Part shown: one piece after another, positions 51,804-62,249 of the stretch
Numbering within the stretch: the first letter of the stretch is position 1
How the letters are laid out: each line of letters opens with the position of its first letter
Assembly (NCBI RefSeq): GCF_036924745.1
Contig: NZ_JAZHSD010000001.1
Coordinates: 1,550,001 to 1,614,000, forward strand
Length of the DNA: 64,000 nt
Direction: 5' to 3'
Origin: Bradyrhizobium sp. AZCC 1693
GTDB lineage: Bacteria > Pseudomonadota > Alphaproteobacteria > Rhizobiales > Xanthobacteraceae
Notes under the pieces: generated by a model
Database searches by the model: none
Seen by the model: only the letters and a program-made list of their open reading frames with translations
What the model was told of the DNA's origin: nothing
Program-made: the position numbers and the translations under genes

Positions 51804-52057
51804 TCAACGCGCCATCGGCTGCAGCGCTTGGCTGAACATATGGTCGCGACCGCGCAGCGCGCGAGTAAAAAGCGTTTGTCGCGCGAATCTTTCTGCTTGA
51901 TGGCGACAACTGTCAGCATGGCGGCAACAAGCAGGCCAGGCGATGCATCTTGCGCCCGAGGCCATGCCAGGCATAACCTGAACGCGGGGATATCGCAGCC
52001 TCCCCGTCAAATGGCGATCCCATTCAAGCGCTGCTCGCTTTTCTGTGGAGCGGGCAC

Positions 52058-52789
52058 ATGGATGGAACGACACTCGAACTGCCGCTGTTTCTTCTCGCGA
52101 CCTTTGCCGGCGCGCTGGTCGCTGGCCTCTCCGGCTTCGCCTTCGGCCTCGTCGTCTCTGCGATCTGGCTCTACTTCCTTACTCCCCTGCAAACGGCGAC
52201 GCTGATCATCGCATTCGGGCTGATCGTGCAGGGCTATTCGGTCTGGAAGCTGCGCGGCGCGCTGGACTGGCGGCGACTCTGGCCGTTCATGGCCGGCGCC
52301 GCGCTCGGCGTTCCCGTCGGCGTCGGTATCCTGACCTGGGCGAACCCCGCCCATGTGCGCATGGGCGTTGGCGCTTTCCTGGTGCTCTACAGCCTCTATG
52401 CGCTGCTGCGGCCGGCCATCCCAGCGGTGAAAGCGGACGGCGCCGCGGCCGACGCGGGTGTCGGCTTCCTCAACGGCGTGCTCGGCGGCATCACCGGGCT
52501 TGCCGGAATTCTCGTGATCATCTGGTGCGGCTTGCGCGGCTGGTCCAAGGACGTGCAGCGCGCGGTGTTTCAGCCGGTGGCGGTTGCGATCTTCGTCATG
52601 AGCGCGTTGTGGATCGGCGCCAGGGGCGCGATCACGCCTGAGGTGATCAAGCTGTTCCTGGTCGGATTGCCGGCCCTGTTCGCCGGCACCTGGCTTGGGC
52701 TGAAACTGTTCGGGCGGCTCGACGAGGCCGCATTCCGGAAAATCGTGCTGGTGCTGCTTCTGACGTCGGGCGCCCTGCTGGTCGTCTAG
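52058..52789 (+). CDS. TauE/SafE family sulfite/sulfonate exporter
   Basis: A 243-residue membrane protein with about seven helices and the two TauE repeats: FLLATFAGALVAGLSGFAFGLV near the N-terminus and VGFLNGVLGGITGLAGILVIIWCGLRGW in the second half. Family members export sulfite, sulfoacetate or related anions. It is alone between intergenic regions and divergent from the EamA gene. Confidence 0.9.
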   Translation: MDGTTLELPLFLLATFAGALVAGLSGFAFGLVVSAIWLYFLTPLQTATLIIAFGLIVQGYSVWKLRGALDWRRLWPFMAGAALGVPVGVGILTWANPAHVRMGVGAFLVLYSLYALLRPAIPAVKADGAAADAGVGFLNGVLGGITGLAGILVIIWCGLRGWSKDVQRAVFQPVAVAIFVMSALWIGARGAITPEVIKLFLVGLPALFAGTWLGLKLFGRLDEAAFRKIVLVLLLTSGALLVV

Positions 52790-53255: not shown

Positions 53256-53672
53256 TCGCGCGACCCGCGTTGGTCATGATCTGACAACCCCCTCAACGCT
53301 GAAACCGAAGAACACGTATCCAACCTGCATTGATCAATTGAAGGTGAACGCAAGGTTCGTTTCTACGGATGTCCCGCGGGATTGCGCTTGAAATAAAGGC
53401 TTTCGCGCCATCTCGTGACACAGTTGCAGTTGGCGGCGCCTGAACACGTTGACAGTCCACACCAGTGTGGCTGAATACGTCTATGGGGGTTTGCGATCCC
53501 CCCACGAGGCGACATGCCCAAGTATCGCGTCCCGGTTTCCCGGAGGCGCATACGCATGCCCGAATACCTGCCGTTACTCAAAAAAATCCGTCAACGCTCG
53601 GCCGCGCTGCGCCATGGCTCGCGGGAACATTTCCGTGTGCGACCGAACGTCGGGCGCAAGAAGGAGAACGCC
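53256..53672. other. Leader region of the DUF1259 gene
   Basis: About 417 bases before the DUF1259 ATG. It contains a sigma-70-type promoter, a hairpin and a leader ORF start, described separately at 53449-53534. The part before 53440 shows nothing clear. Confidence 0.5.
53449..53534 (+). promoter_or_regulatory. Leader copy A: promoter, hairpin and MPKYRVP start, before the DUF1259 gene
   Basis: TTGACA (53449-53454), a 17-base spacer holding the dyad CCACAC-CA-GTGTGG, and TGAATA make a good promoter. It is followed by a GGGGG/CCCCC hairpin (53485-53503) with loop TTGCGAT, a GAGG ribosome site and ATG at 53514 opening MPKYRVP. The stretch 53491-53534 is the same as 58911-58954 except for one base. 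The leader frame stays open into the DUF1259 gene. Confidence 0.75.
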
Positions 53673-54563
53673 ATGAAACAATCCCTTACGCTACTCGCGC
53701 TCGGCACAGCGCTGCTGCTGTCACACGCCGCCCGCGCCGATGCTATCGACTGGAAGAAGGTAGACGCCGCCCTCGGGAAGACCGCCACGGTAAGCGGCGA
53801 AGTGCATCGTTACGGGCTGCCGCGATCCGATCTGCACGTCACGCTGGACGGCGTCGCAATCAAGCCGGCGCTGGCGCTCGGAGGATGGATCGCCTTCGCG
53901 CCCATGCAGGGAGAGGCTATGTTGATGGGCGACCTGGTGCTGCTGGATACAGAAATCACGCCCGTCATGACCAAATTGCTGGACAGCGGGCTGGACATCA
54001 CTGCGATCCACAATCACGTGCTGCGTGGCTCTCCTGCGACCTTCTACATGCACGTGGCCGGACACGGCGACCCCGAGAAGATGGCAAGCGCCATCCGCGC
54101 GGCGCTTTCGTCGGCAAGCAAGACGCCCTTTGATCCGCCGGCCACCACCGCCACCGCAGCGCCGGCCATCGACCTCGACACCGCAAAAATCGACGAGGCG
54201 ATGGGCGCCAAGGGTACCGTCAATGGCGGCGTCTACCAGTACGGCATCCCCCGCCGCGATCCGGCCAGGGAAGGCGGTATGGCCGTCAACGGCGCGTTGG
54301 GCGGCGCTAACGCCATCAACTTCCAACCCACGGGCAACGGCAAGGCGGCCATCACCGGCGACTTCCTGGTGACGCCCAATGAGGTCAATCCGCTGATCCG
54401 GGCCTTGCGTGCCGGCAGCATCGAGGTGACGGCCATCCATAGCCACATGCTCGACGAGGAGCCGCGTATGTTCTTCATCCACTTCTGGGCCAACGACGAT
54501 GCCTTGAGGCTGGCACACGGCGTTCGCGCAGCCCTCGACAAGACGGCGGTTGCGCAGCACTGA
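53673..54563 (+). CDS. DUF1259 (LppY/LpqO) domain protein, exported
   Basis: A 296-residue protein with signal peptide MKQSLTLLALGTALLLSHAARA and two DUF1259 repeats: the first from DWKKVDAALGKTATVSGEVHRYGLPRSD to AALSSASK, the second from DTAKIDEAMGAKGTVNGGVYQYGIPRRD to the end. Each repeat has an ITAIHNH or VTAIHSH motif with paired His residues, a possible metal site. Start at 53673 follows AAGAAGGAG. Leader copy A upstream is almost identical to the one before the chromate operon, so it may share its control. Function unknown. Confidence 0.88.
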   Translation: MKQSLTLLALGTALLLSHAARADAIDWKKVDAALGKTATVSGEVHRYGLPRSDLHVTLDGVAIKPALALGGWIAFAPMQGEAMLMGDLVLLDTEITPVMTKLLDSGLDITAIHNHVLRGSPATFYMHVAGHGDPEKMASAIRAALSSASKTPFDPPATTATAAPAIDLDTAKIDEAMGAKGTVNGGVYQYGIPRRDPAREGGMAVNGALGGANAINFQPTGNGKAAITGDFLVTPNEVNPLIRALRAGSIEVTAIHSHMLDEEPRMFFIHFWANDDALRLAHGVRAALDKTAVAQH

Positions 54564-54601
54564 ACATTCGCGCCGCGCTAGCCCTGCTCCTCCGGCTGGT
54601 G

Positions 54602-55173
54602 CTAGCCGTGCTCGTGCGGGCAGGTCTCCACCTCAATGGTCACGTGGCTCAACCCGTGCAAGCCGCCGAGCCGACGCTTGTAGGTCGCCGGCGGCAGCGG
54701 GTGATCGGAGATGACCGAAATCACTGCGGCGCGATGCCCGGGGCCGACCTGCCACAGATGCAGATCGGTGACACGATCACCCCTGGTCTCGAGCCGGTCG
54801 CGGATCACCATTTCGAGATTCTTGTCCGCGTTGACGTCGAGCAGAACGGCGCCGGAGGCGCGCAGCAACCCGTAGGCCCAGTTCGCGATCACGAGGCTGC
54901 CGATGATTCCCACCGCCGGATCAGCCCACACCCATTGCGCGTACATCGCCACCAGCAACGCCGCGATGGCCAGGATCGAGGTCGCGGCGTCGGCCATCAC
55001 ATGGACATAGGCAGCCCGCAGATTGTTCCGGAAAGCCACCCGACGACGATCTCGCCGACCATCATGACAGTGGTCAGCGCCACCACGAACCAGATCCGAC
55101 GCTCGTGACGGTCATGGCGGGAACCCAGGAACACGTGATCGTGAGTCCACTGATCGATGGAATGTGAGTGCAT
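54602..55173 (-). pseudogene. Cation diffusion facilitator (DmeF-like), internally deleted and frameshifted
   Basis: The N-terminal part starts MHSHSIDQWTHDHVFLGSRHDRHERRIWFVVALTTVMMVGEIVVGWLSG, characteristic of rhizobial DmeF cobalt/nickel exporters. Directly after GWLSG the sequence jumps to NNLRAAYVHVMADAATSILAIAALLVAMYAQWVW, the fourth to fifth helices of the same family, in another frame, and then continues to the C-terminal cytoplasmic domain and PHEHG. The HxxxD metal motifs of helix 2 are lost. Roughly half the protein is missing, so this is a pseudogene. An intact CDF gene lies at 61302. Confidence 0.83.
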
Positions 55174-55246
55174 GGTCCTTCCTCGGCAAACATCGGACGA
55201 TACCGCTCGCCCGAGTATAAACCCTGCCCGCGCGCGCATTAAGCCG

Positions 55247-56476
55247 TCAGGGGGATGATTCCTCCGGCGGCTTGATATGGCGGAACGAGAACAAGAGCGC
55301 GAGGTCGTAGGCGATCTTGAGCGTGCCGCAGACCACCAGCGGTAGCCCGGTAAACGACGTCATCAGCAGTGCGCCCGAGATCGCCGGGCTGATCGCGGAT
55401 GCAAGGCTGCGCGGCACGGCGGTGACGCTGGCAGCCGCCGGCCGTTCGGCCGGCGTCACCACGGCCATGACGTAGGAGGTGCGGGTCGGCACGTCCATCT
55501 GCGAGAGCGCCGAGCGCAACAGCAGCAACCCGAGCGCCAGATAGAGGTTCGGCGAGAACGCCGCCAGGATCAGGAAGATGCTGGAGGGAATATGCGTGAA
55601 CACCATGGTGTTGACGAGGCCCGCGCGTTTGGCGATCCAGGCCGCGACCGGATAGGAGAAGGCGCTCAGGGTGCTCGACCAGAAGAAAAACAATCCGGCC
55701 GCTGATAGCGACAGGTCGAAGCGCTCGAACAGCCAGAGCACCAGCAGCGACTGCGCGACGAAACCGCCCGCGAAGGCATCGATGCTGAACAGCGCCGCCA
55801 GCTTGTAGACGGTGCCGCGCGACGGGCCGAGCGGCGTCTGCGGCGCCCTCTCCTCGCCGCGGGTGTGCGGCACGTAGCGATAGAGCGCGGCGCAGGCGAT
55901 GCCGAGCGCGGCATAGGCATAGAACATCAGGCGGAACGCGGCGAGGTTGGTGCTACCGCCCGCGACAAGGAGATCGGGCAATGTAGCCGCCAGCGAACCC
56001 GTCGCGGTGCAGAGCGCGCCAATCAGGCTATAGCGCGCGAACACCTGCGTGCGGCGCTCATCGGCAGCACTATGCGCCAGCACCGCATGCTCGAGCGGCA
56101 CCAGCACGCCGAGATCGCCGCCGGATGGATTGATGGTGCCGATGAACGCGACCAGCGCGATCAGCACAAAATGCTCGACGCCGGGAAAGGCTATGCCGGT
56201 GGCTGCCATCAGGCCCGCGCCCGCGATCAGCAGCGGCCGCAGATCGTGGCGCGGCGCGATCCAGCCTGTGATCAGGGTCAGCAGCGCGGTTCCCAATAGC
56301 GACGCCGTCGCGACAATGCCGACCGCGACGGCGTCGTAACCGAGCGCGGTCATGTAGGCTGGCAAGATGATGACTGCAAAACCGTCGCCAAAGCCGCGCA
56401 GGCCACGGGCGACATAGAGCAGCGAGATCAGGGCGGACCCGGTCGACGCCTTCGGTTCGGTCACGACATCAGTCAT
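55247..56476 (-). CDS. MFS transporter
   Basis: A 409-residue 12-helix facilitator. The start at 56476 has a GAGG nine bases upstream; 56485 is an alternative. Helix 1 region is SLLYVARGLRGFGDGFAVIILPAYM. The C-terminal half has SALSQMDVPTRTSYVMAVVTPAERPAAASVTAVPRSLASA, a pattern common in the MFS_1 exporters. It follows the upstream secreted protein gene by about 12 bases, so both are likely cotranscribed. Confidence 0.88.
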   Translation of the reverse strand: MTDVVTEPKASTGSALISLLYVARGLRGFGDGFAVIILPAYMTALGYDAVAVGIVATASLLGTALLTLITGWIAPRHDLRPLLIAGAGLMAATGIAFPGVEHFVLIALVAFIGTINPSGGDLGVLVPLEHAVLAHSAADERRTQVFARYSLIGALCTATGSLAATLPDLLVAGGSTNLAAFRLMFYAYAALGIACAALYRYVPHTRGEERAPQTPLGPSRGTVYKLAALFSIDAFAGGFVAQSLLVLWLFERFDLSLSAAGLFFFWSSTLSAFSYPVAAWIAKRAGLVNTMVFTHIPSSIFLILAAFSPNLYLALGLLLLRSALSQMDVPTRTSYVMAVVTPAERPAAASVTAVPRSLASAISPAISGALLMTSFTGLPLVVCGTLKIAYDLALLFSFRHIKPPEESSP

Positions 56477-56487
56477 CCCCGGCATCC

Positions 56488-57177
56488 TCACGGCAAAGTG
56501 GTGATCGTTACTTGATCGAAGCGCGTCACGCTGTCCGCCTTGGTCCATAGCGCAATACCGCCTGCATCCCTGAACGTATCGTCCTTGACCTCGAACAGGA
56601 CCGCTCCGTCATAGCTCACCGTGAAGCGGTCGCCTTCGGCCCGCAGGGCGAGAACGTGCCATTCATTCGAGGTCACGCGAATGTTTGACGTGCCGAGCTG
56701 CTGCCGCCGGCCGGCGACGACGCGATAGAAGCGAACATTATTCTCAAGCGCGTTGGCCCGGGCGACGTAGTAATTGTCAGGGTCCGCAAGCCGCACGACA
56801 ATGCCGCCGGCCTGGTCGATCCTGCCTGCAACGGGCTTGAAGCGCACCTGCATGATGAGATTCTTCGCCGAAAAGCTTTCGTGGAGAGCGAGCGGAAAGC
56901 GGTAATCGGTGCGGTCGGTACTCTGCTGCTCGATGGCGCGGCCCGCCTTGGCGGTCGGGTCGGCGACAACACTCCATTTGCCCTCCGCGCCGAGGCCGGT
57001 CCGCGCAAACGAGAATCCGGCCGGCGGGGAACCTATAGTCATGCGGTCGATGGCAATCATGAGGGCTTCTCCCGCCGTGGACGCCGGGAATCCAGCGCAT
57101 GCCAAGGCGGCCGCGGCGAGCGCGACGCGCAGTGTTGACCTGATGGAACAAAAAAATATCGGCCCTGAACCATCCAT
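56488..57177 (-). CDS. Secreted DUF1080-like (concanavalin-like fold) protein
   Basis: A 229-residue protein with a signal peptide (STLRVALAAAALACAGFPASTAG). The mature part resembles the 3-keto-disaccharide hydrolase/DUF1080 lectin-like fold: GKWSVVADPTAKAGRAIEQ, GGIVVRLADPDNYYVARAN and WHVLALRAEGDRFTVSYDGAVLFE. Such proteins bind or cleave glycans. The start has a GGAGGAG ribosome site. Upstream, the region toward the chromate operon is split by an IS1202-type element. Confidence 0.8.
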   Translation of the reverse strand: MDGSGPIFFCSIRSTLRVALAAAALACAGFPASTAGEALMIAIDRMTIGSPPAGFSFARTGLGAEGKWSVVADPTAKAGRAIEQQSTDRTDYRFPLALHESFSAKNLIMQVRFKPVAGRIDQAGGIVVRLADPDNYYVARANALENNVRFYRVVAGRRQQLGTSNIRVTSNEWHVLALRAEGDRFTVSYDGAVLFEVKDDTFRDAGGIALWTKADSVTRFDQVTITTLP

Positions 57178-57291
57178 GTGCGCTCCTCCCGACAGGTCGG
57201 GTGTGCGCAGAGCTTGGACGGTGGGCCGTCTGACGGGGAGCCTGCTTTGTCCCCGGTGAATAGACTAGGCCCGATTGTGGACACGCGCAAG

Positions 57292-57306
57292 CACAAGGCG
57301 CGAGAC
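57292..57306. repeat. Target-site duplication, left copy
   Basis: CACAAGGCGCGAGAC, identical to 58848-58862, directly abuts the left end of the IS1202-type element. Confidence 0.9.
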
Positions 57307-58847
57307 CTGTCAGTAGCGCGTGATCTGTCGTGTGTTTGTAGCTCGTGAAGTGTCGTGTTTTTGGTGCCCTGGAACAAAGGGGGCACGATGGGCACGGCAT
57401 CCATTCACGAGGGTGTACGACGGATGCGGTTTTCGGATTTGCTGGATCGGACGGAGGCGAAGGAACTGACGCAGGCGGCCGCGGCTGAGCTTCTCGGGAT
57501 CAACGTGCGGACGTTTCAACGTTGGGCGGAACGCTATGAGGCGGAGGGCGATGACGGGCTTGTCGACCTCCGTATGGGGCGGCGATCGCCGCGGCGCGCG
57601 CCGGAGGAAGAGCTTGAGCGGATGCTGGGGCTGTTCCGGGACAGGTACGCGGACTTCACGGTGAAGCACTTCCACGAGCAGCTGCAAAAGCGGCATGGCT
57701 ATGTGCTTGGCTACACGGTGACGAAGCTGGCCTTGCACGCGGCGGGCTTGGTGCGGAAGGCGCCGAAGCGTTCGGCGCACCGCAAGAAGCGTCCGCGCCG
57801 GCCGCTTCCGGGCATGCTGCTGCATCAGGACGGGTCGCGCCACGCCTGGATCGAAGGTCTGCCGGCGATGGACCTGATCGTCACGCTGGACGATGCGACG
57901 AGCGAGATCTACTCGATGTTTCTGGTCGAGGAAGAAGGCACGGCGTCGACGTTCCAGGCCTTGGGCGAAGTGATTGGCGGGCGCGGCCTGTTCTGCGCGC
58001 TCTACACCGATCGCGGCAGCCATTATTTCTACACCCCGAAGGCTGGCGAGAAGGTCTCGAAGACGCAACAAACCCAGGTGGGACGGGCTTTATCGCATCT
58101 TGGGATCGAGCATATCGCAGCCTATTCGCCGGAGGCGCGCGGGCGCTCCGAGCGGATGTTCGGCACGCTGCAGGGCCGGCTGCCGAAGGACCTGCGGCTC
58201 GCCGGGATCAGGACGGTCGAAGCCGCCAATGCGTGGCTGAGGGCGCATTACATGGCCGAGCATAACGCGGCGTTTGCGATCAAGGCCGAACAGCCGGGCA
58301 CGGCGTTCGTCGCCGATCGCCACGAGGCTTGGCGCGAAGCGCTGTGCGTGATCGAAGACCGAACCGTCGCCAACGACAATACGATCGCATGGAACGGTCG
58401 GCGGCTGCAGCTGCCGGAGAGCCGGCTCAGGCCCCACTTCGTCAAAGCCCTGGTGCGGGTCCATGAGTATCCCGATGGCACCGCGAGCGTGTTCCTTGGC
58501 CCGCACCGATTGGCGACGTTTGCCGCCGACGGACACCAGATCAGCCCCGACGCGCCTCAGCCTGGCAGCGTGCTCGGAGCCGTCAAGGACAAGCCCTTGC
58601 GGGCGCGCAAGCGCGCGTCCTTGACCGCCCCTGCGCGCGCCGCCGTCGAGATAGCGCGGGTCGGGGCGGAGAAACGGGCTTCAAGTCGAACAAAGAAACC
58701 GACCAGGAGGGCTAACCCGGCAGCAATATCCGTGGCATGACCAACCCGGAGGAAACCGTCCACGCCTTCCGGCTCCTCCGAAACTCAACAACGAAGGCGA
58801 CAGATCACGAGCTACAAAAATACGACAACTTCACCCGCTACGGACAG
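57307..58847 (+). mobile_element. ISNCY/IS1202-type insertion sequence
   Basis: About 1541 bases between two identical 15-bp direct repeats. Both ends begin with CTGTC and have long imperfect inverted repeats that share GTAGCG, GTGA, TGTCGT and TTTGTAGCTCGTGA (left end 57307-57350, right end 58804-58847 inverted). A 15-base target duplication fits the ISTde1-like subgroup of IS1202. The transposase gene is intact, so the element could be active. It was inserted just upstream of the chromate promoter. Confidence 0.9.
57388..58740 (+). CDS. ISNCY/IS1202-type transposase
   Basis: A 450-residue DDE enzyme. The N-terminal helix-turn-helix is LTQAAAAELLGINVRTFQRWAERYEAEGDDGLVD. The catalytic triad is in LLHQDGSRHAWI (Asp), ALYTDRGSHYF (Asp) and GRSERMFGTLQGRLPKDL (Glu). 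The C-terminal tail is basic. Start at 57388 after AAAGGGGG; a GTG upstream at 57355 is in frame but less likely. Confidence 0.92.
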   Translation: MGTASIHEGVRRMRFSDLLDRTEAKELTQAAAAELLGINVRTFQRWAERYEAEGDDGLVDLRMGRRSPRRAPEEELERMLGLFRDRYADFTVKHFHEQLQKRHGYVLGYTVTKLALHAAGLVRKAPKRSAHRKKRPRRPLPGMLLHQDGSRHAWIEGLPAMDLIVTLDDATSEIYSMFLVEEEGTASTFQALGEVIGGRGLFCALYTDRGSHYFYTPKAGEKVSKTQQTQVGRALSHLGIEHIAAYSPEARGRSERMFGTLQGRLPKDLRLAGIRTVEAANAWLRAHYMAEHNAAFAIKAEQPGTAFVADRHEAWREALCVIEDRTVANDNTIAWNGRRLQLPESRLRPHFVKALVRVHEYPDGTASVFLGPHRLATFAADGHQISPDAPQPGSVLGAVKDKPLRARKRASLTAPARAAVEIARVGAEKRASSRTKKPTRRANPAAISVA

Positions 58848-58862
58848 CACAAGGCGCGAGAC
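58848..58862. repeat. Target-site duplication, right copy
   Basis: CACAAGGCGCGAGAC, identical to 57292-57306. It ends four bases before the TTGACA of the chromate leader promoter, so the insertion left that promoter intact. Confidence 0.9.
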
Positions 58863-58866
58863 CCCG

Positions 58867-58957
58867 TTGACAGTGAAAGCGGCAAGCAGTTAATTCGGCC
58901 CATGGGGATGTTGCGATCTCCCCACGAGGCGACATGCCCAAGTATCGCGTCCCGTTT
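58867..58957 (+). promoter_or_regulatory. Leader copy B: promoter, hairpin and MPKYRVP upstream ORF, before the chromate operon
   Basis: TTGACA (58867-58872), a spacer of 17 and TTAATT form the promoter. Then come a GGGG/CCCC hairpin (58904-58923) with the same TTGCGAT loop as copy A, GAGG and the ATG at 58934 of the upstream ORF. The two leaders are nearly identical over 58911-58954. It resembles the chrB RNA leaders described computationally upstream of chromate genes in alphaproteobacteria; that comparison is from memory. Confidence 0.75.
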
Positions 58958-59023
58958 CTTTTGACGAGGGCGCAGCCATGTCATCCTACACCACGATATC
59001 TCCCGACAAGCTTATCCGATTGA
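58934..59023 (+). CDS. Upstream ORF of the chromate operon (29 aa, MPKYRVP leader)
   Basis: The frame MPKYRVPFLLTRAQPCHPTPR ends in TGA at 59021-59023 and overlaps the first 46 bases of the rhodanese-ChrB gene (start 58978). GAGG lies five bases upstream of its ATG. Its first seven codons are the same as those of leader copy A at 53514, and synonymous changes are absent, so RNA-level constraint is also possible. Translation of it would interfere with or couple to chrB start. Confidence 0.5.
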   Translation: MPKYRVPFLLTRAQPCHPTPRYLPTSLSD

Positions 59024-59796
59024 TCGGCACGGCGAACACGCCTGCGCTGATCGACGTTCGGACCGACGAGGATTTCGCTGCCGACCAGCGGCTGATCCCC
59101 GGCGCGGTCAGGCGCAACCATGAGCAAGCCGCCGAATGGGGCGAGGAGTTTTCAGGCCGCTCGGCCATCGTCGTCTGCCTGCGCGGCCAGAAACTCGCGC
59201 AAGGCACCGCGGCCTGGCTGCGGCATCTGCACGTTTCGGCCGAAGCACTCGAAGGCGGCTTCGAAGGCTGGAAGGCGGCCAAACTGCCGCTGGTGCCGGC
59301 CGCAAAACTCCCGGCGCGCGACGCGCAGGGCCGCACCGTCTGGGTGACCCGCGCGCGGCCGAAGATCGATCGCATTGCCTGCCCGTGGCTGATCCGCAGG
59401 TTCGTCGACCCGAACGCGGTGTTCCTGTTCGTCACGCCGCCGGAAGTGCTAGGGGTCAGCGAGCGATTCAACGCCGCGCCCTTCGATGTCGAGAACGTAT
59501 TCTGGAGCCACCGCGGCGAACTCTGCACCTTCGACGTGATGATCGAGGAATTCGGCCTGGCCACGCCGCCTTTGCTGCGGCTGGCGACGATGGTCCGGGG
59601 CGCCGACACCGCGCGGCTCGATCTGTCGCCGGAAGCGCCCGGCCTGCTCGCCGCTTCGCTCGGCCTGTCGCGCATGTTCGACGACGATCTCGAGCAGCTC
59701 GAGGCCGGCATGACGCTGTACGACGCGTTCTATCGCTGGTGCCGCGACGCGACTGGCGAGACGCACAATTGGCCGACCAACAAGGCGAAATCGTAA
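58978..59796 (+). CDS. chrB: Chromate resistance protein with rhodanese and ChrB domains
   Basis: A 272-residue protein. Residues about 5-115 are a rhodanese domain (ALIDVRTDEDFAADQRLIPGAVRRNH; active-site loop VVCLRGQKLAQG with the Cys). Residues about 120-260 are the ChrB C-terminal domain (VWVTRARPKIDRIACPWLIRRFVDPNAVFLFV; EFGLATPPLLRLATMVRGADT). In chromate loci such fusions act upstream of the ChrA pump. The stop TAA shares a base with the ATG of chrA (TAATG). Confidence 0.9.
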   Translation: MSSYTTISPDKLIRLIGTANTPALIDVRTDEDFAADQRLIPGAVRRNHEQAAEWGEEFSGRSAIVVCLRGQKLAQGTAAWLRHLHVSAEALEGGFEGWKAAKLPLVPAAKLPARDAQGRTVWVTRARPKIDRIACPWLIRRFVDPNAVFLFVTPPEVLGVSERFNAAPFDVENVFWSHRGELCTFDVMIEEFGLATPPLLRLATMVRGADTARLDLSPEAPGLLAASLGLSRMFDDDLEQLEAGMTLYDAFYRWCRDATGETHNWPTNKAKS

Positions 59797-61199
59797 TGGA
59801 TGCGACGATCGACAAGGCGGCCGGGGCCGGCGCCGCCCGCGACCTCGGTCACGGCATCAGCTTCGGTGAAGCGTTCCGGGTCTGGCTGCGGGTCGCCGTA
59901 TTGAGTTTCGGCGGCCCGGCCGGGCAGATCGCGGTGATGCACCGCATCCTGGTCGAGGAGAAGAACTGGATCTCCGAGAGCCGGTTTTTGCATGCGCTGA
60001 ACTATTGCATGCTGCTGCCGGGGCCGGAGGCGCAGCAGCTTGCGACCTATATCGGCTGGCTGCTGCACCGGACCGCCGGTGGCATCATGGCCGGCGGCCT
60101 GTTCATCCTGCCCGGCATCATCGCCATCATGGGACTGAGCTACATCTACGCGGCCTACGGCAACGTCGGCTTTGTCGAAGCGGTGTTCTTCGGGCTGAAG
60201 GCCGCGGTGCTCGCCATCGTGGTCCATGCGGTCGTTCGCGTCGGCAAGCGCGCGCTGCGCAATCGCGTCATGATTGCGCTCGCGGCAATTGCCTTTGTCG
60301 CGATCTTCTTTTTCGACGTCCCGTTCCCGATCATCATCATCGCGGCTGGCGTGATCGGCTATCTCGGTGCGCGCAGCGGACGGCCGGAATTTGCGGCGAT
60401 CGAACACGGTGGCGGCGGCGAGAAGTCGGCCGCGGCCGACAGCCTGCTCGGCGAGGAATTGCCCGACCACGTCCGCCCGAGCGTCGGCCGCGCGCTGCGC
60501 GTAAGCTCGGTGTGGCTGTTGCTGTGGGTGGTCCCGGTGGCGGCGCTGCTGATCGGGCTCGGCCAGGCCAATGTGTTCAGCCAGATCGCGCTGTTCTTTT
60601 CAAAGATGGCGATGGTGACGTTCGGCGGCGCCTATGCGGTGCTGGCCTATGTCGCGCAGCAGGCGGTGGAACATTATCACTGGCTGCAGCCGCGCGAGAT
60701 GCTCGACGGCCTCGGCATGGCCGAGACCACGCCGGGTCCGCTGATCATGGTGCTGCAGTTCGTGGGCTTCATGGCCGCCTACCGCGATCCCGGCACGCTG
60801 TCGCCGATGCTGGCTGCCACGCTTGGCGGCTTGCTCGCGACCTGGGTCACCTTCATCCCCTGCTTCCTCTGGATCTTCTTAGGCGCGCCCTATATCGAGA
60901 CGCTGCGCGGCAACAAGGGGCTCGCCGGCGCGCTCTCGGCGATCACCGCCGCCGTGGTCGGCGTGATCCTGAACCTTTCGATCTGGTTCGGATTGCACAC
61001 GCTGTTCCGGCAGACCACGCCGGTTCGCTCGTTCGGGCTATCGTTCGACATGCCGGTGTGGGGAAGCCTCGATATTGCAGCCTTCGCGCTGGCGGCGGCC
61101 GCGGCGACGGCGATCTTCCGCTTCAATATCGGGATGTTGTGGGTGCTGGCGGGGTCGTGCGCGGCGGGGGTGATGATGCGGTTTGCGGGGTGGGCTTGA
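59796..61199 (+). CDS. chrA: Chromate transporter ChrA (two-domain)
   Basis: A 467-residue inner-membrane pump with two homologous CHR domains. The N-terminal domain carries VLSFGGPAGQIAVMHRILVEEKNWISESRFLHALNYCMLLPGPEAQQLATYIGW; the C-terminal one carries MVTFGGAYAVLAYVAQQAVEHYHWLQPREMLDGLGMAETTPGPLIMVLQFVGFMAAYR. ChrA extrudes chromate using the proton-motive force. The start at 59796 is translationally coupled to chrB. A long perfect inverted repeat (61221-61291) follows. Confidence 0.95.
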   Translation: MDATIDKAAGAGAARDLGHGISFGEAFRVWLRVAVLSFGGPAGQIAVMHRILVEEKNWISESRFLHALNYCMLLPGPEAQQLATYIGWLLHRTAGGIMAGGLFILPGIIAIMGLSYIYAAYGNVGFVEAVFFGLKAAVLAIVVHAVVRVGKRALRNRVMIALAAIAFVAIFFFDVPFPIIIIAAGVIGYLGARSGRPEFAAIEHGGGGEKSAAADSLLGEELPDHVRPSVGRALRVSSVWLLLWVVPVAALLIGLGQANVFSQIALFFSKMAMVTFGGAYAVLAYVAQQAVEHYHWLQPREMLDGLGMAETTPGPLIMVLQFVGFMAAYRDPGTLSPMLAATLGGLLATWVTFIPCFLWIFLGAPYIETLRGNKGLAGALSAITAAVVGVILNLSIWFGLHTLFRQTTPVRSFGLSFDMPVWGSLDIAAFALAAAAATAIFRFNIGMLWVLAGSCAAGVMMRFAGWA

Positions 61200-61220
61200 G
61201 CGTAGCCGCGATCTCGTAGA

Positions 61221-61291
61221 ATGGGTGGAGCGCAGCGATACCCATCAATACCGGTTTGTGACGGTGATGGGTATCGCTTCGCTCCACCCAT
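61221..61291. repeat. Long inverted repeat after chrA
   Basis: The 27-base arms (61221-61247 and 61265-61291) pair with few mismatches, the right beginning TGATGGGTATCGCTTCGCTC. The 17-base loop gives a strong hairpin. It lies between convergent genes and may act as a bidirectional terminator; a Bradyrhizobium-type repeat. Confidence 0.8.
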
Positions 61292-61301
61292 CCTACATTC
61301 C

Positions 61302-62249
61302 CTACACCCGTTCCGCCGGCGCCAGCTTGCACACCTCCGCGGCGGCTTCGATCTGCAGCGTGGAATGGTGGATGTTGAAGCGGTGCGAGAGCTCCTCGCA
61401 GACGCCGTGCAGAAAGGCGTCGTCGGTGCCGCCGGGCCGCACCAGATGCGCGGTCAGCGCGGTCTCGTTGGTGCTCATCGCCCAGATGTGGAGGTCATGC
61501 ACTTCCGTGATACCCTCCAGCCCGGCGAGATAATCCCTCACCTTCGCAAGCTCGATGCCGCGCGGCACGCCGTCGAGCGCGAGGCTGACGCTGTCGCGCG
61601 CCAGCTCCCATCCGCTCCAGATCACCACGGCGGCGATCACGAGGCTGATCGCGGGATCGAGCCACAGCCATCCCGTCATCATGATGATGAGAGCCGCAAC
61701 CACCACGCCGAGCGAGACGCCCGCATCCGCCGCCATGTGCAGATAGGCACCGCGAATATTGAGGTCGCCGTGGCGGCCGCGCATGAACAATAGCGCGGTG
61801 AAGCCGTTGATCGCGACGCCGAGCGCCGCAACCACCACGACCGTCCAGCCCGCGACCGGCGCAGGGCTGTAGAGCCGGTTGACCGCCTCGACGACGATGC
61901 CGCCGACCGCGACCAACAGCAGACCGGCGTTGAACAGGGCCGCCAGGATCGAAGCGCGACGATAGCCGTAGGTGTGCCGCTGCGTCGGTTGCTTCTGCGC
62001 CAGCCATGCCGCGCCCCATGCCAGCAGCAGCGCGATCACGTCGGAGAGATTGTGAACGGCGTCCGAAATCAGCGCCAATGAATTGGCGGCGTAGCCGAAG
62101 ATCAGTTCCGCAATAACGAAGGCGGTATTGAGGGCGGCGCCGATGGCAAAGGCCCAGCCGAAGCTATCGGGCGCATGGCTGTGGCCGACGTGACCATGGG
62201 AATGATCATGCGCGTGGGAATGGGAGTGATGAGAGTGATCGTGCGCCAT
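61302..62249 (-). CDS. Cation diffusion facilitator family zinc/cobalt exporter
   Basis: A 315-residue CDF with six helices. The His-rich N-terminus (HDHSHHSHSHAHDHSHGHVGHSHAPD) is typical of ZitB/CzcD types. Metal-site motifs are ISDAVHNLSDV (HxxxD of helix 2) and MAADAGVSLGVV (HxxxD equivalent of helix 5, LHMAADAG). The cytoplasmic domain has EVHDLHIWAMS. Start at 62249 with GAGGCGG. It probably exports Zn2+ or related divalent metal. Confidence 0.93.
   Translation of the reverse strand: MAHDHSHHSHSHAHDHSHGHVGHSHAPDSFGWAFAIGAALNTAFVIAELIFGYAANSLALISDAVHNLSDVIALLLAWGAAWLAQKQPTQRHTYGYRRASILAALFNAGLLLVAVGGIVVEAVNRLYSPAPVAGWTVVVVAALGVAINGFTALLFMRGRHGDLNIRGAYLHMAADAGVSLGVVVAALIIMMTGWLWLDPAISLVIAAVVIWSGWELARDSVSLALDGVPRGIELAKVRDYLAGLEGITEVHDLHIWAMSTNETALTAHLVRPGGTDDAFLHGVCEELSHRFNIHHSTLQIEAAAEVCKLAPAERV

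Follow-up and report, generated by a model that had tools for sequence, protein, structure and literature searches.

We analysed a 64,000-nucleotide window of the genome of Bradyrhizobium sp. AZCC 1693 (contig NZ_JAZHSD010000001.1, positions 1,550,001 to 1,614,000), in which a first-pass annotation had pointed to a nearly identical leader before two different genes. Both leaders are chrB-a RNAs, and two further RNAs that the annotation did not mention, of the chrB-b family, lie near them. The four RNAs head the genes for a TauE transporter, a DUF1259 protein, a lectin-like protein with an MFS transporter, and a Rhodanese-ChrB_C protein with the transporter ChrA, a neighbourhood that constitutes a chromate cluster. 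Judging from their sequences, we consider it moderately probable that all four act as translational switches of a single chromate-stress regulon, in which two competing folds, here called A and B, would expose or hide the ribosome site.

Pseudoknot architecture of the chrB-a and chrB-b RNAs

The repeated block at 53491-53534 and 58911-58954 differs at one of 44 bases, just as originally described (C53499 in the DUF1259 copy, T58919 in the ChrB copy). The partner of this base in the first hairpin (P1) lies outside the block and changes with it (G53489 and A58908, respectively), such that a G-C pair becomes an A-U pair and the pairing is kept; in the 40-nucleotide flanks on each side of the block just 10 of 40 positions match. 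The suggestion that the copies are chrB RNAs was borne out when the Rfam models were run: both blocks match chrB-a (RF03078, gathering cut-off 43.9 bits) over the full model (1-80), with scores above the cut-off and far above chance expectation (Table 1). Neither reached the cut-off for chrB-b (RF03086, 36.5 bits), the ChrB block scoring 26.3 bits at 58903-58948 and 53480-53558 being unlisted for that family. The two additional RNAs match chrB-b over the full model (1-49), both above its cut-off. A search of the whole genome (7,609,345 bases, E <= 0.001) returned two chrB-a and two chrB-b RNAs, which are these four, all within 7 kb; the scans scored 150 of 1349 and 150 of 1730 first-look candidates, and weak copies may escape them. 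The genes downstream of the two blocks are unrelated, as had been stated, Pfam assigning one to DUF1259 (PF07485) and the other to Rhodanese-ChrB_C.

Among the genomes searched, chrB-a occurs in 71 and chrB-b in 22 of 297 at the order level, and in 30 and 34 of 385, respectively, at the class level. The comparisons below use 98 chrB-a sequences, made up of 71 of 76 order-level hits (second hits of genomes G112 and G216, and those of G026, G209 and G229, were left out) and 27 of 32 class-level hits (four duplicates and one without a locus were left out), and 55 chrB-b sequences, made up of 28 of 31 order-level and 28 of 47 class-level hits minus one duplicate. The window copies are included in both sets.

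The two families have a common plan: the loop of a 5' hairpin pairs with a strand further downstream in a pseudoknot that covaries. The order of parts is the same in both: five pseudoknot letters, one nucleotide, the 3' arm of P1, a second hairpin (P2), a CAAG-like stretch and the pseudoknot strand. In chrB-a, GCGAU in the P1 loop faces AUCGC downstream; among 64 sequences parsed of 71 tried, GCGAU/AUCGC was found in 30, GCGAA/UUCGC and GCGAG/UUCGC in six each, and ACAAG/CUUGU, with three compensated pairs, in one. The pair types of chrB-b are more varied and include GCAGA/UCUGC, GCAGG/CCUGC, GCGGU/ACCGC, GCCGU/ACGGC and GCAAC/GUUGC. At fixed spacing, 400 of 475 pseudoknot cells are paired across 95 chrB-a sequences (three of the 98 are omitted from this count) and 226 of 275 across the 55 chrB-b sequences, values that none of 2000 shuffles reached in either family. 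In slid registers, no more than 220 of 475 and 144 of 275 cells paired, and each such count was matched by 21 or more of 2000 shuffles (21 for chrB-a, slide -2). All five pairs are present in 61 of 95 chrB-a and 35 of 55 chrB-b sequences at this fixed spacing, at which some rows are misread.

Alignments of 30 sequences per family, chosen by hand for diversity, gave a similar picture. The chrB-a pseudoknot was 96.7% paired with eight double-change cells, the chrB-b pseudoknot (29 distinct rows) 96.5% paired with 25, and the third hairpin of chrB-a (P3) 97.8% paired with eight; in each case the covariation score was reached in none of 500 shuffles. P2 of chrB-b was 88.4% paired, with double changes at all five pairs, and P2 of chrB-a is near-constant, which leaves covariation uninformative there. 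The leaders possess the conserved, covarying, aptamer-like fold that a riboswitch should have, though stricter measures are not exceeded throughout. On these measures (the number of pairs with a double change and the number of pair types, for which five or six pairs leave little room), the observed values were reached in 0 and 55 of 500 shuffles for the chrB-a pseudoknot, 106 and 406 for chrB-a P3, 59 and 191 for the chrB-b pseudoknot, and 30 and 246 for chrB-b P2. The values for chrB-a P3 and the chrB-b pseudoknot, and the second value for the chrB-a pseudoknot, do not beat the shuffles and weigh against the proposed switch; so do the fifth chrB-a pseudoknot pair, broken in 20 of 64 parsed sequences (16 of them GCGAC), and the design of the shuffles and swaps, which leave relatedness among the sequences uncontrolled.

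The chrB motifs reportedly stem from Weinberg et al. 2017. The Rfam structure line for chrB-a holds P1 and P3 only, to which the window adds the pseudoknot, the GGC/GCC P2 and the DUF1259 (ChrL) target, and the Rfam model of chrB-b ends at the pseudoknot strand, to which the window leaders add the ribosome-site hairpin. The two families belong to no common Rfam clan, and the chrB-b model matches some chrB-a sites, always below its cut-off. The pseudoknot itself was already known, a chrB RNA being named as a new covarying example in the CaCoFold study (PMC7657543); the passages of that study available to us leave the chrB family unspecified and do not describe the regulon or the start-site pairing. 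In the open literature, with subscription journals mostly outside our search, we found no experiments on chrB RNAs, which were named only in a structure-prediction study.

Ribosome-site hairpin and the proposed switch

Both families have a hairpin that covers the ribosome site (P3 in chrB-a), and for chrB-b its support is good. The predicted probability that the site is unpaired is about 0.1 in the two chrB-a leaders of the window and 0.3 in the two chrB-b leaders, and the predicted folds of both chrB-b leaders have a paired start region and retain P1. Across the family, the chrB-b stretch from P2 to 12 nucleotides past the pseudoknot arm binds its own start region at -21.5 kcal/mol and those of others at -17.9 kcal/mol, a preference equalled in none of 5000 permutations of the 47 testable sequences of 55 (the start finder failed for eight). 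Independently, 22 of 55 chrB-b leaders, compared with 2% in shuffles, have within 80 nucleotides the motif AUGGAC/U, which can pair with GUCCA of P2; these leaders cover eight groups of contexts (ChrB, ChrA, TauE, MFS, lectin-like, DUF6815, DUF1259-leader and small-protein); the TauE and lectin-like proteins of the window are unrelated and both begin MDG. Intrinsic termination was rejected as the output of the leaders, the window scan having listed no such terminators at the four of them.

Translational riboswitches alternate between competing folds and conceal the ribosome site in one of them, and the arrangement we propose for the chrB RNAs, from sequence alone, is of this kind. Fold A would consist of the P1 hairpin, P2 and the pseudoknot of the P1 loop with the downstream strand. 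In fold B, a hairpin would keep the ribosome-binding site hidden and take up part of the pseudoknot strand: two letters in chrB-a, and probably more in chrB-b, where the P2 strand may reach the start codon. Fold A would be stabilised, and the start exposed, by a signal that increases during chromate stress, such that ChrB-ChrA, DUF1259 (ChrL), TauE and the lectin-MFS pair would be turned on together. In the DUF1259 transcript, the switch would govern a leader open reading frame (ORF) that is fused or coupled to DUF1259.

The competition of folds would depend on an extension of the chrB-b hairpin into the strands of the pseudoknot and P2, which these pairings support moderately; the degree to which folds A and B exclude each other has weak support. 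We are less sure of the competition than of the hairpin because chrB-b start pairing comes mainly from the 12 nucleotides after the arm (-10.1 against -8.6 kcal/mol, 0 of 5000 permutations), while the strand from P2 to the arm by itself gives a weak preference (-13.1 against -12.4, 107 of 5000); permutations reached the observed value in 140 of 5000 cases when this strand was set against the start codon only, and in 95 of 5000 for the arm alone. Other points tell in the same direction: P3 and the pseudoknot of chrB-a have just two nucleotides in common, the best predicted fold of the ChrB leader lacks P1, the TauE leader fold is of ordinary stability (z -1.24), and the fold energies leave out pseudoknots.

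Target genes, promoters and alternative readings

By blastp, the gene that follows the 98 chrB-a RNAs is ChrB in 87, ChrA in six, DUF1259 in two (the window and genome G194) and another gene in three; after the 55 chrB-b RNAs it is ChrB in 20, MFS in eight, ChrA in six, TauE in four, lectin-like in three, DUF1259 in one and another gene in 13. The other targets include a superoxide dismutase (PF02777), an ornithine cyclodeaminase-like protein (PF02423), seven DUF6815 proteins (two by Pfam) that are 44-82% identical to a plasmid 'Cj0069 family' protein, and, at locus L175, a protein that is YncE-like by eye and has no Pfam family. Among the matches listed, pattern-scan loci also show chrB-a followed by a superoxide dismutase (L047) or by a YNCE-type beta-propeller (L101); this locus survey is biased, most loci coming from an exact-pattern scan and one window site being counted twice. 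Also among the matches listed, four loci (L091, L097, L101 and L107) carry chrB-a, an ORF of 59-70 codons and then another gene, as before DUF1259; the second gene is a YNCE-type propeller by Pfam in L101 and was named by eye in the others. At L222, L223, L231 and L242, chrB-b precedes an ornithine cyclodeaminase-like protein (L222 by Pfam, L223 by eye) or small basic proteins without a Pfam match.

ChrB is the commonest next gene, and one may postulate that the ChrB protein itself binds the leader RNA and, as the chromate sensor, controls both its own transcript and the sister transcripts. We regard this as unlikely: among 80 of the 116 genomes with a chrB RNA match (E <= 0.001), 24 lack ChrB_C (15 of 64 when restricted to good-quality genomes), which disfavours ChrB as an obligate or general sensor. 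Thirteen of these 24 have an RNA hit above the family cut-off, and in three of the 24 genomes the gene behind the RNA is a match to residues 1-110, the rhodanese part, of the window ChrB.

A second alternative concerns the position of the element behind the promoter. TTGACA stands upstream of both blocks, as the first-pass annotation had it, 36 and 37 nucleotides before the first G of P1; TTGAC lies 30-46 nucleotides before P1 in 82 of 98 chrB-a sequences (shuffled mean 1.3), and CTTG precedes P1 in 34 of the 53 chrB-b sequences with sufficient upstream sequence (shuffled mean 3.6). The leader promoters are assigned from this positioning because a consensus sigma-70 scan listed none of them, and transcription probably begins at P1 or slightly upstream of it. 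Such placement right behind the promoter, together with the inverted G/C arms, would also suit a protein-binding DNA operator or a 5' mRNA stabiliser that does no switching. Covarying interleaved pairing and a hairpin over the ribosome site are, however, expected of an RNA and not of an operator, and we find this explanation improbable.

The annotation had further read a GAGG site and seven leader codons (MPKYRVP) as a conserved upstream ORF, from which one might envisage a ribosome-read leader peptide that controls the genes in the manner of an attenuator. Both window copies do have an ATG preceded by GAGG, but this reading did not hold up among relatives: 17 of 71 order-level chrB-a sequences have the ATG and none of the 27 class-level ones do (17 of 98), a relative of the same genus (G035) has ACG at that position, and relatives without the ATG keep the same codon letters. 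The letters GAGGC...GCC form the P2 mini-hairpin, with the supposed start inside its loop. We therefore rejected the leader-peptide attenuator, for which no conserved upstream ORF was found among the 98 sequences, as very improbable.

DUF1259 (ChrL), the chromate cluster and its significance

The presence of the block before DUF1259 genes elsewhere, whose absence the first-pass annotation had named as a refutation, was searched for and found, with synteny. Of 149 family genomes, 22 carry PF07485; in five of these 22, the window genome included (G000, G194, G216, G680 and G777), a chrB RNA above cut-off lies directly before DUF1259, and in two more (G752 and G759) one lies before a ChrB gene or fragment upstream of DUF1259 on the same strand. 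A ChrB or ChrA relative flanks DUF1259 in 12 of the 22 genomes (one a weak 30% match), and any gene of the window cluster in 17, again counting the window's own. At least five Bradyrhizobium loci have a chrB RNA before DUF1259 (L036, L050, L084, L088 and L098, the last below the family cut-off at 34.3 bits), L036, L084, L088, L098 and G194 repeat the chrB-a/DUF1259 unit together with chrB-b/TauE upstream of it, and DUF1259 stands behind chrB-b in G216 and G680. Six of eight plasmid regions picked by hand from 108 matching records lie near annotated ChrB or ChrA, and the remaining two near a superoxide dismutase and a Cj0069 gene. Because the DUF1259 leader recurs in this way, and given the unrelated flanks and the compensated single difference, the notion that the match is a recent local duplication without function at DUF1259 is scarcely credible despite 43 of 44 identical positions within one genome.

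The window protein matches PF07485 at 287.9 bits (cut-off 25) and has 44.4% identity over 90% with the product of a DUF1259 gene next to chrA on plasmid 3 of Arthrobacter FB24 (NC_008539), a gene that we infer to be Arth_4247/chrL from its place and from the description in the available passages of the FB24 paper (PMC2751784). By this similarity we identify the window protein as ChrL (LppY/LpqO). According to the same passages, FB24 chrL belongs to the LppY/LpqO family, lies near chrA and is induced about 37- to 95-fold by 5 to 100 uM chromate, and the discussion states that deletion of chrJ, chrK and chrL lowers chromate resistance (PMC2751784); chrL is also mentioned in Cupriavidus chr operons (PMC7060636, in part). 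FB24, the host of this protein, is an actinobacterium. The leader does join DUF1259 to chromate genes, as originally proposed, through the chrB RNA, its recurrence and the cluster; the accompanying leader peptide and the 'unrecognised' role of DUF1259 fell away, a link of ChrL to chromate having been on record since 2009 (PMC2751784, passages available). The predicted structure of the window protein is confident (predicted local distance difference test, pLDDT, 85.6); among the matches listed no solved fold was clearly like it (query template-modelling score about 0.2), and by sequence no solved relative appeared beyond one chance-level match (E 0.83).

In 11 leaders before DUF1259, the start that the leader would govern lies 114-230 nucleotides upstream of the DUF1259 start, and the leader ORF is fused to DUF1259 in four, overlaps it at ATGA in five and stops earlier in two. 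The distant DUF1259 start has a ribosome site of its own, and this, like the two leader ORFs that stop well before it, weighs against the proposed switch. Within the Bradyrhizobium group most of the other frames are open as well, and the openness of the leader frame by itself is therefore little proof. One weak match of a leader ORF to ChrB (L005, E 8e-5), among the matches listed, is a hint only, and a second set of eight gave none. The L005 contig, also among the matches listed, is filed as a Mucilaginibacter metagenome-assembled genome and carries a Bradyrhizobium-like chrB-a/DUF1259 unit; the bin may be mixed.

Table 1 Features of the chrB leaders and their genes in the window
Feature	Coordinates	Strand	Basis
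chrB-b RNA (RF03086) before TauE	51985..52034	+	60.2 bits
TauE leader, P1	51985-51990/52001-52006	+	
TauE leader, pseudoknot	51995-51999/52030-52034	+	
TauE leader, P2	52010-52014/52020-52024	+	
TauE leader, segment predicted to pair with the start codon region in place of P2	52020-52026	+	Fold prediction
TauE/SafE family transporter	52058..52789	+	ORF list, Pfam
-35-like TTGACA, DUF1259 leader	53449..53454	+	
chrB-a RNA (RF03078), leader of DUF1259 transcript	53480..53558	+	63.1 bits
DUF1259 leader, P1 (arms 53484-53489/53499-53504)	53484..53504	+	Letters checked
DUF1259 leader, pseudoknot (GCGAU 53493-53497 with AUCGC 53524-53528)	53493..53528	+	Covariation, letters
DUF1259 leader, P2 mini-hairpin GGC/GCC (ATG 53514-53516 in loop/3' arm)	53508..53518	+	Near-invariant
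DUF1259 leader, P3 burying GGAGG 53542-53546 (53527-53528 common with pseudoknot)	53527..53549	+	
ORF starting right after P3, 39 leader codons in frame with DUF1259 gene	53556..54563	+	
Probable own start of DUF1259 (ATG)	53673	+	Site GAAGGAG; signal-peptide-like start by eye
MFS transporter, overlapping preceding lectin-like gene	55247..56548	-	Pfam
Lectin-like protein	56488..57177	-	PF21708, 27.9 bits (cut-off 27)
chrB-b RNA before lectin-like gene (pseudoknot 57245-57241 with 57211-57207)	57207..57255	-	66.8 bits
-35-like TTGACA, ChrB leader	58867..58872	+	
chrB-a RNA, leader of Rhodanese-ChrB_C gene	58899..58980	+	75.7 bits
ChrB leader, P1	58903-58908/58919-58924	+	Letters checked
ChrB leader, pseudoknot	58913-58917/58944-58948	+	Covariation, letters
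ChrB leader, P2	58928-58930/58936-58938	+	Letters checked; near-invariant
ChrB leader, P3	58947-58952/58968-58973	+	Covariation, letters
Rhodanese-ChrB_C protein	58978..59796	+	Pfam
ChrA chromate efflux transporter	59796..61199	+	TIGR00937, 219.2 bits (cut-off 171.7)

Within the cluster, an ISNCY-family transposase (57355-58737, forward strand) separates the chrB-b/lectin unit from the chrB-a/ChrB unit. The remnant of a CDF metal transporter at 54602-55239 (reverse strand) consists of two short overlapping ORFs in different frames; its Pfam match covers the last third of the profile only, and it appears broken. The gap between chrA and a CDF gene (61208-61302) has weak matches to several microRNA models, all below cut-off, and is probably an interspersed palindromic repeat rather than a microRNA. 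The lectin-like protein is alike by description only to 'cep', a protein with a ConA-like lectin domain named for Cupriavidus chr operons in the available part of one paper (PMC7060636).

More tentatively, chrB-a and chrB-b may be two forms of a single class of riboswitch that responds to chromium itself (chromate, or the Cr(III) formed on its reduction) or to a metabolic signal close to it; as a portable 5' cassette, this class would have spread to eight or more kinds of genes of the chromate response in alphaproteobacteria. We hold this to be possible and somewhat doubtful. The leaders are real, look functional and belong to a known type of RNA. What our analysis adds is a cluster with four members, an architecture shared by both Rfam families and a switching mechanism that can be tested, and the view of one class, taken with the ribosome-site hairpin and the gene set, makes a direct test of the flipping signal possible. 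A chromium-responsive RNA, if true, would be a new type of sensor and a useful biosensor part. For the rhizobia, the proposed switch would place ChrL, the lectin-like protein and TauE in one candidate chromate response.

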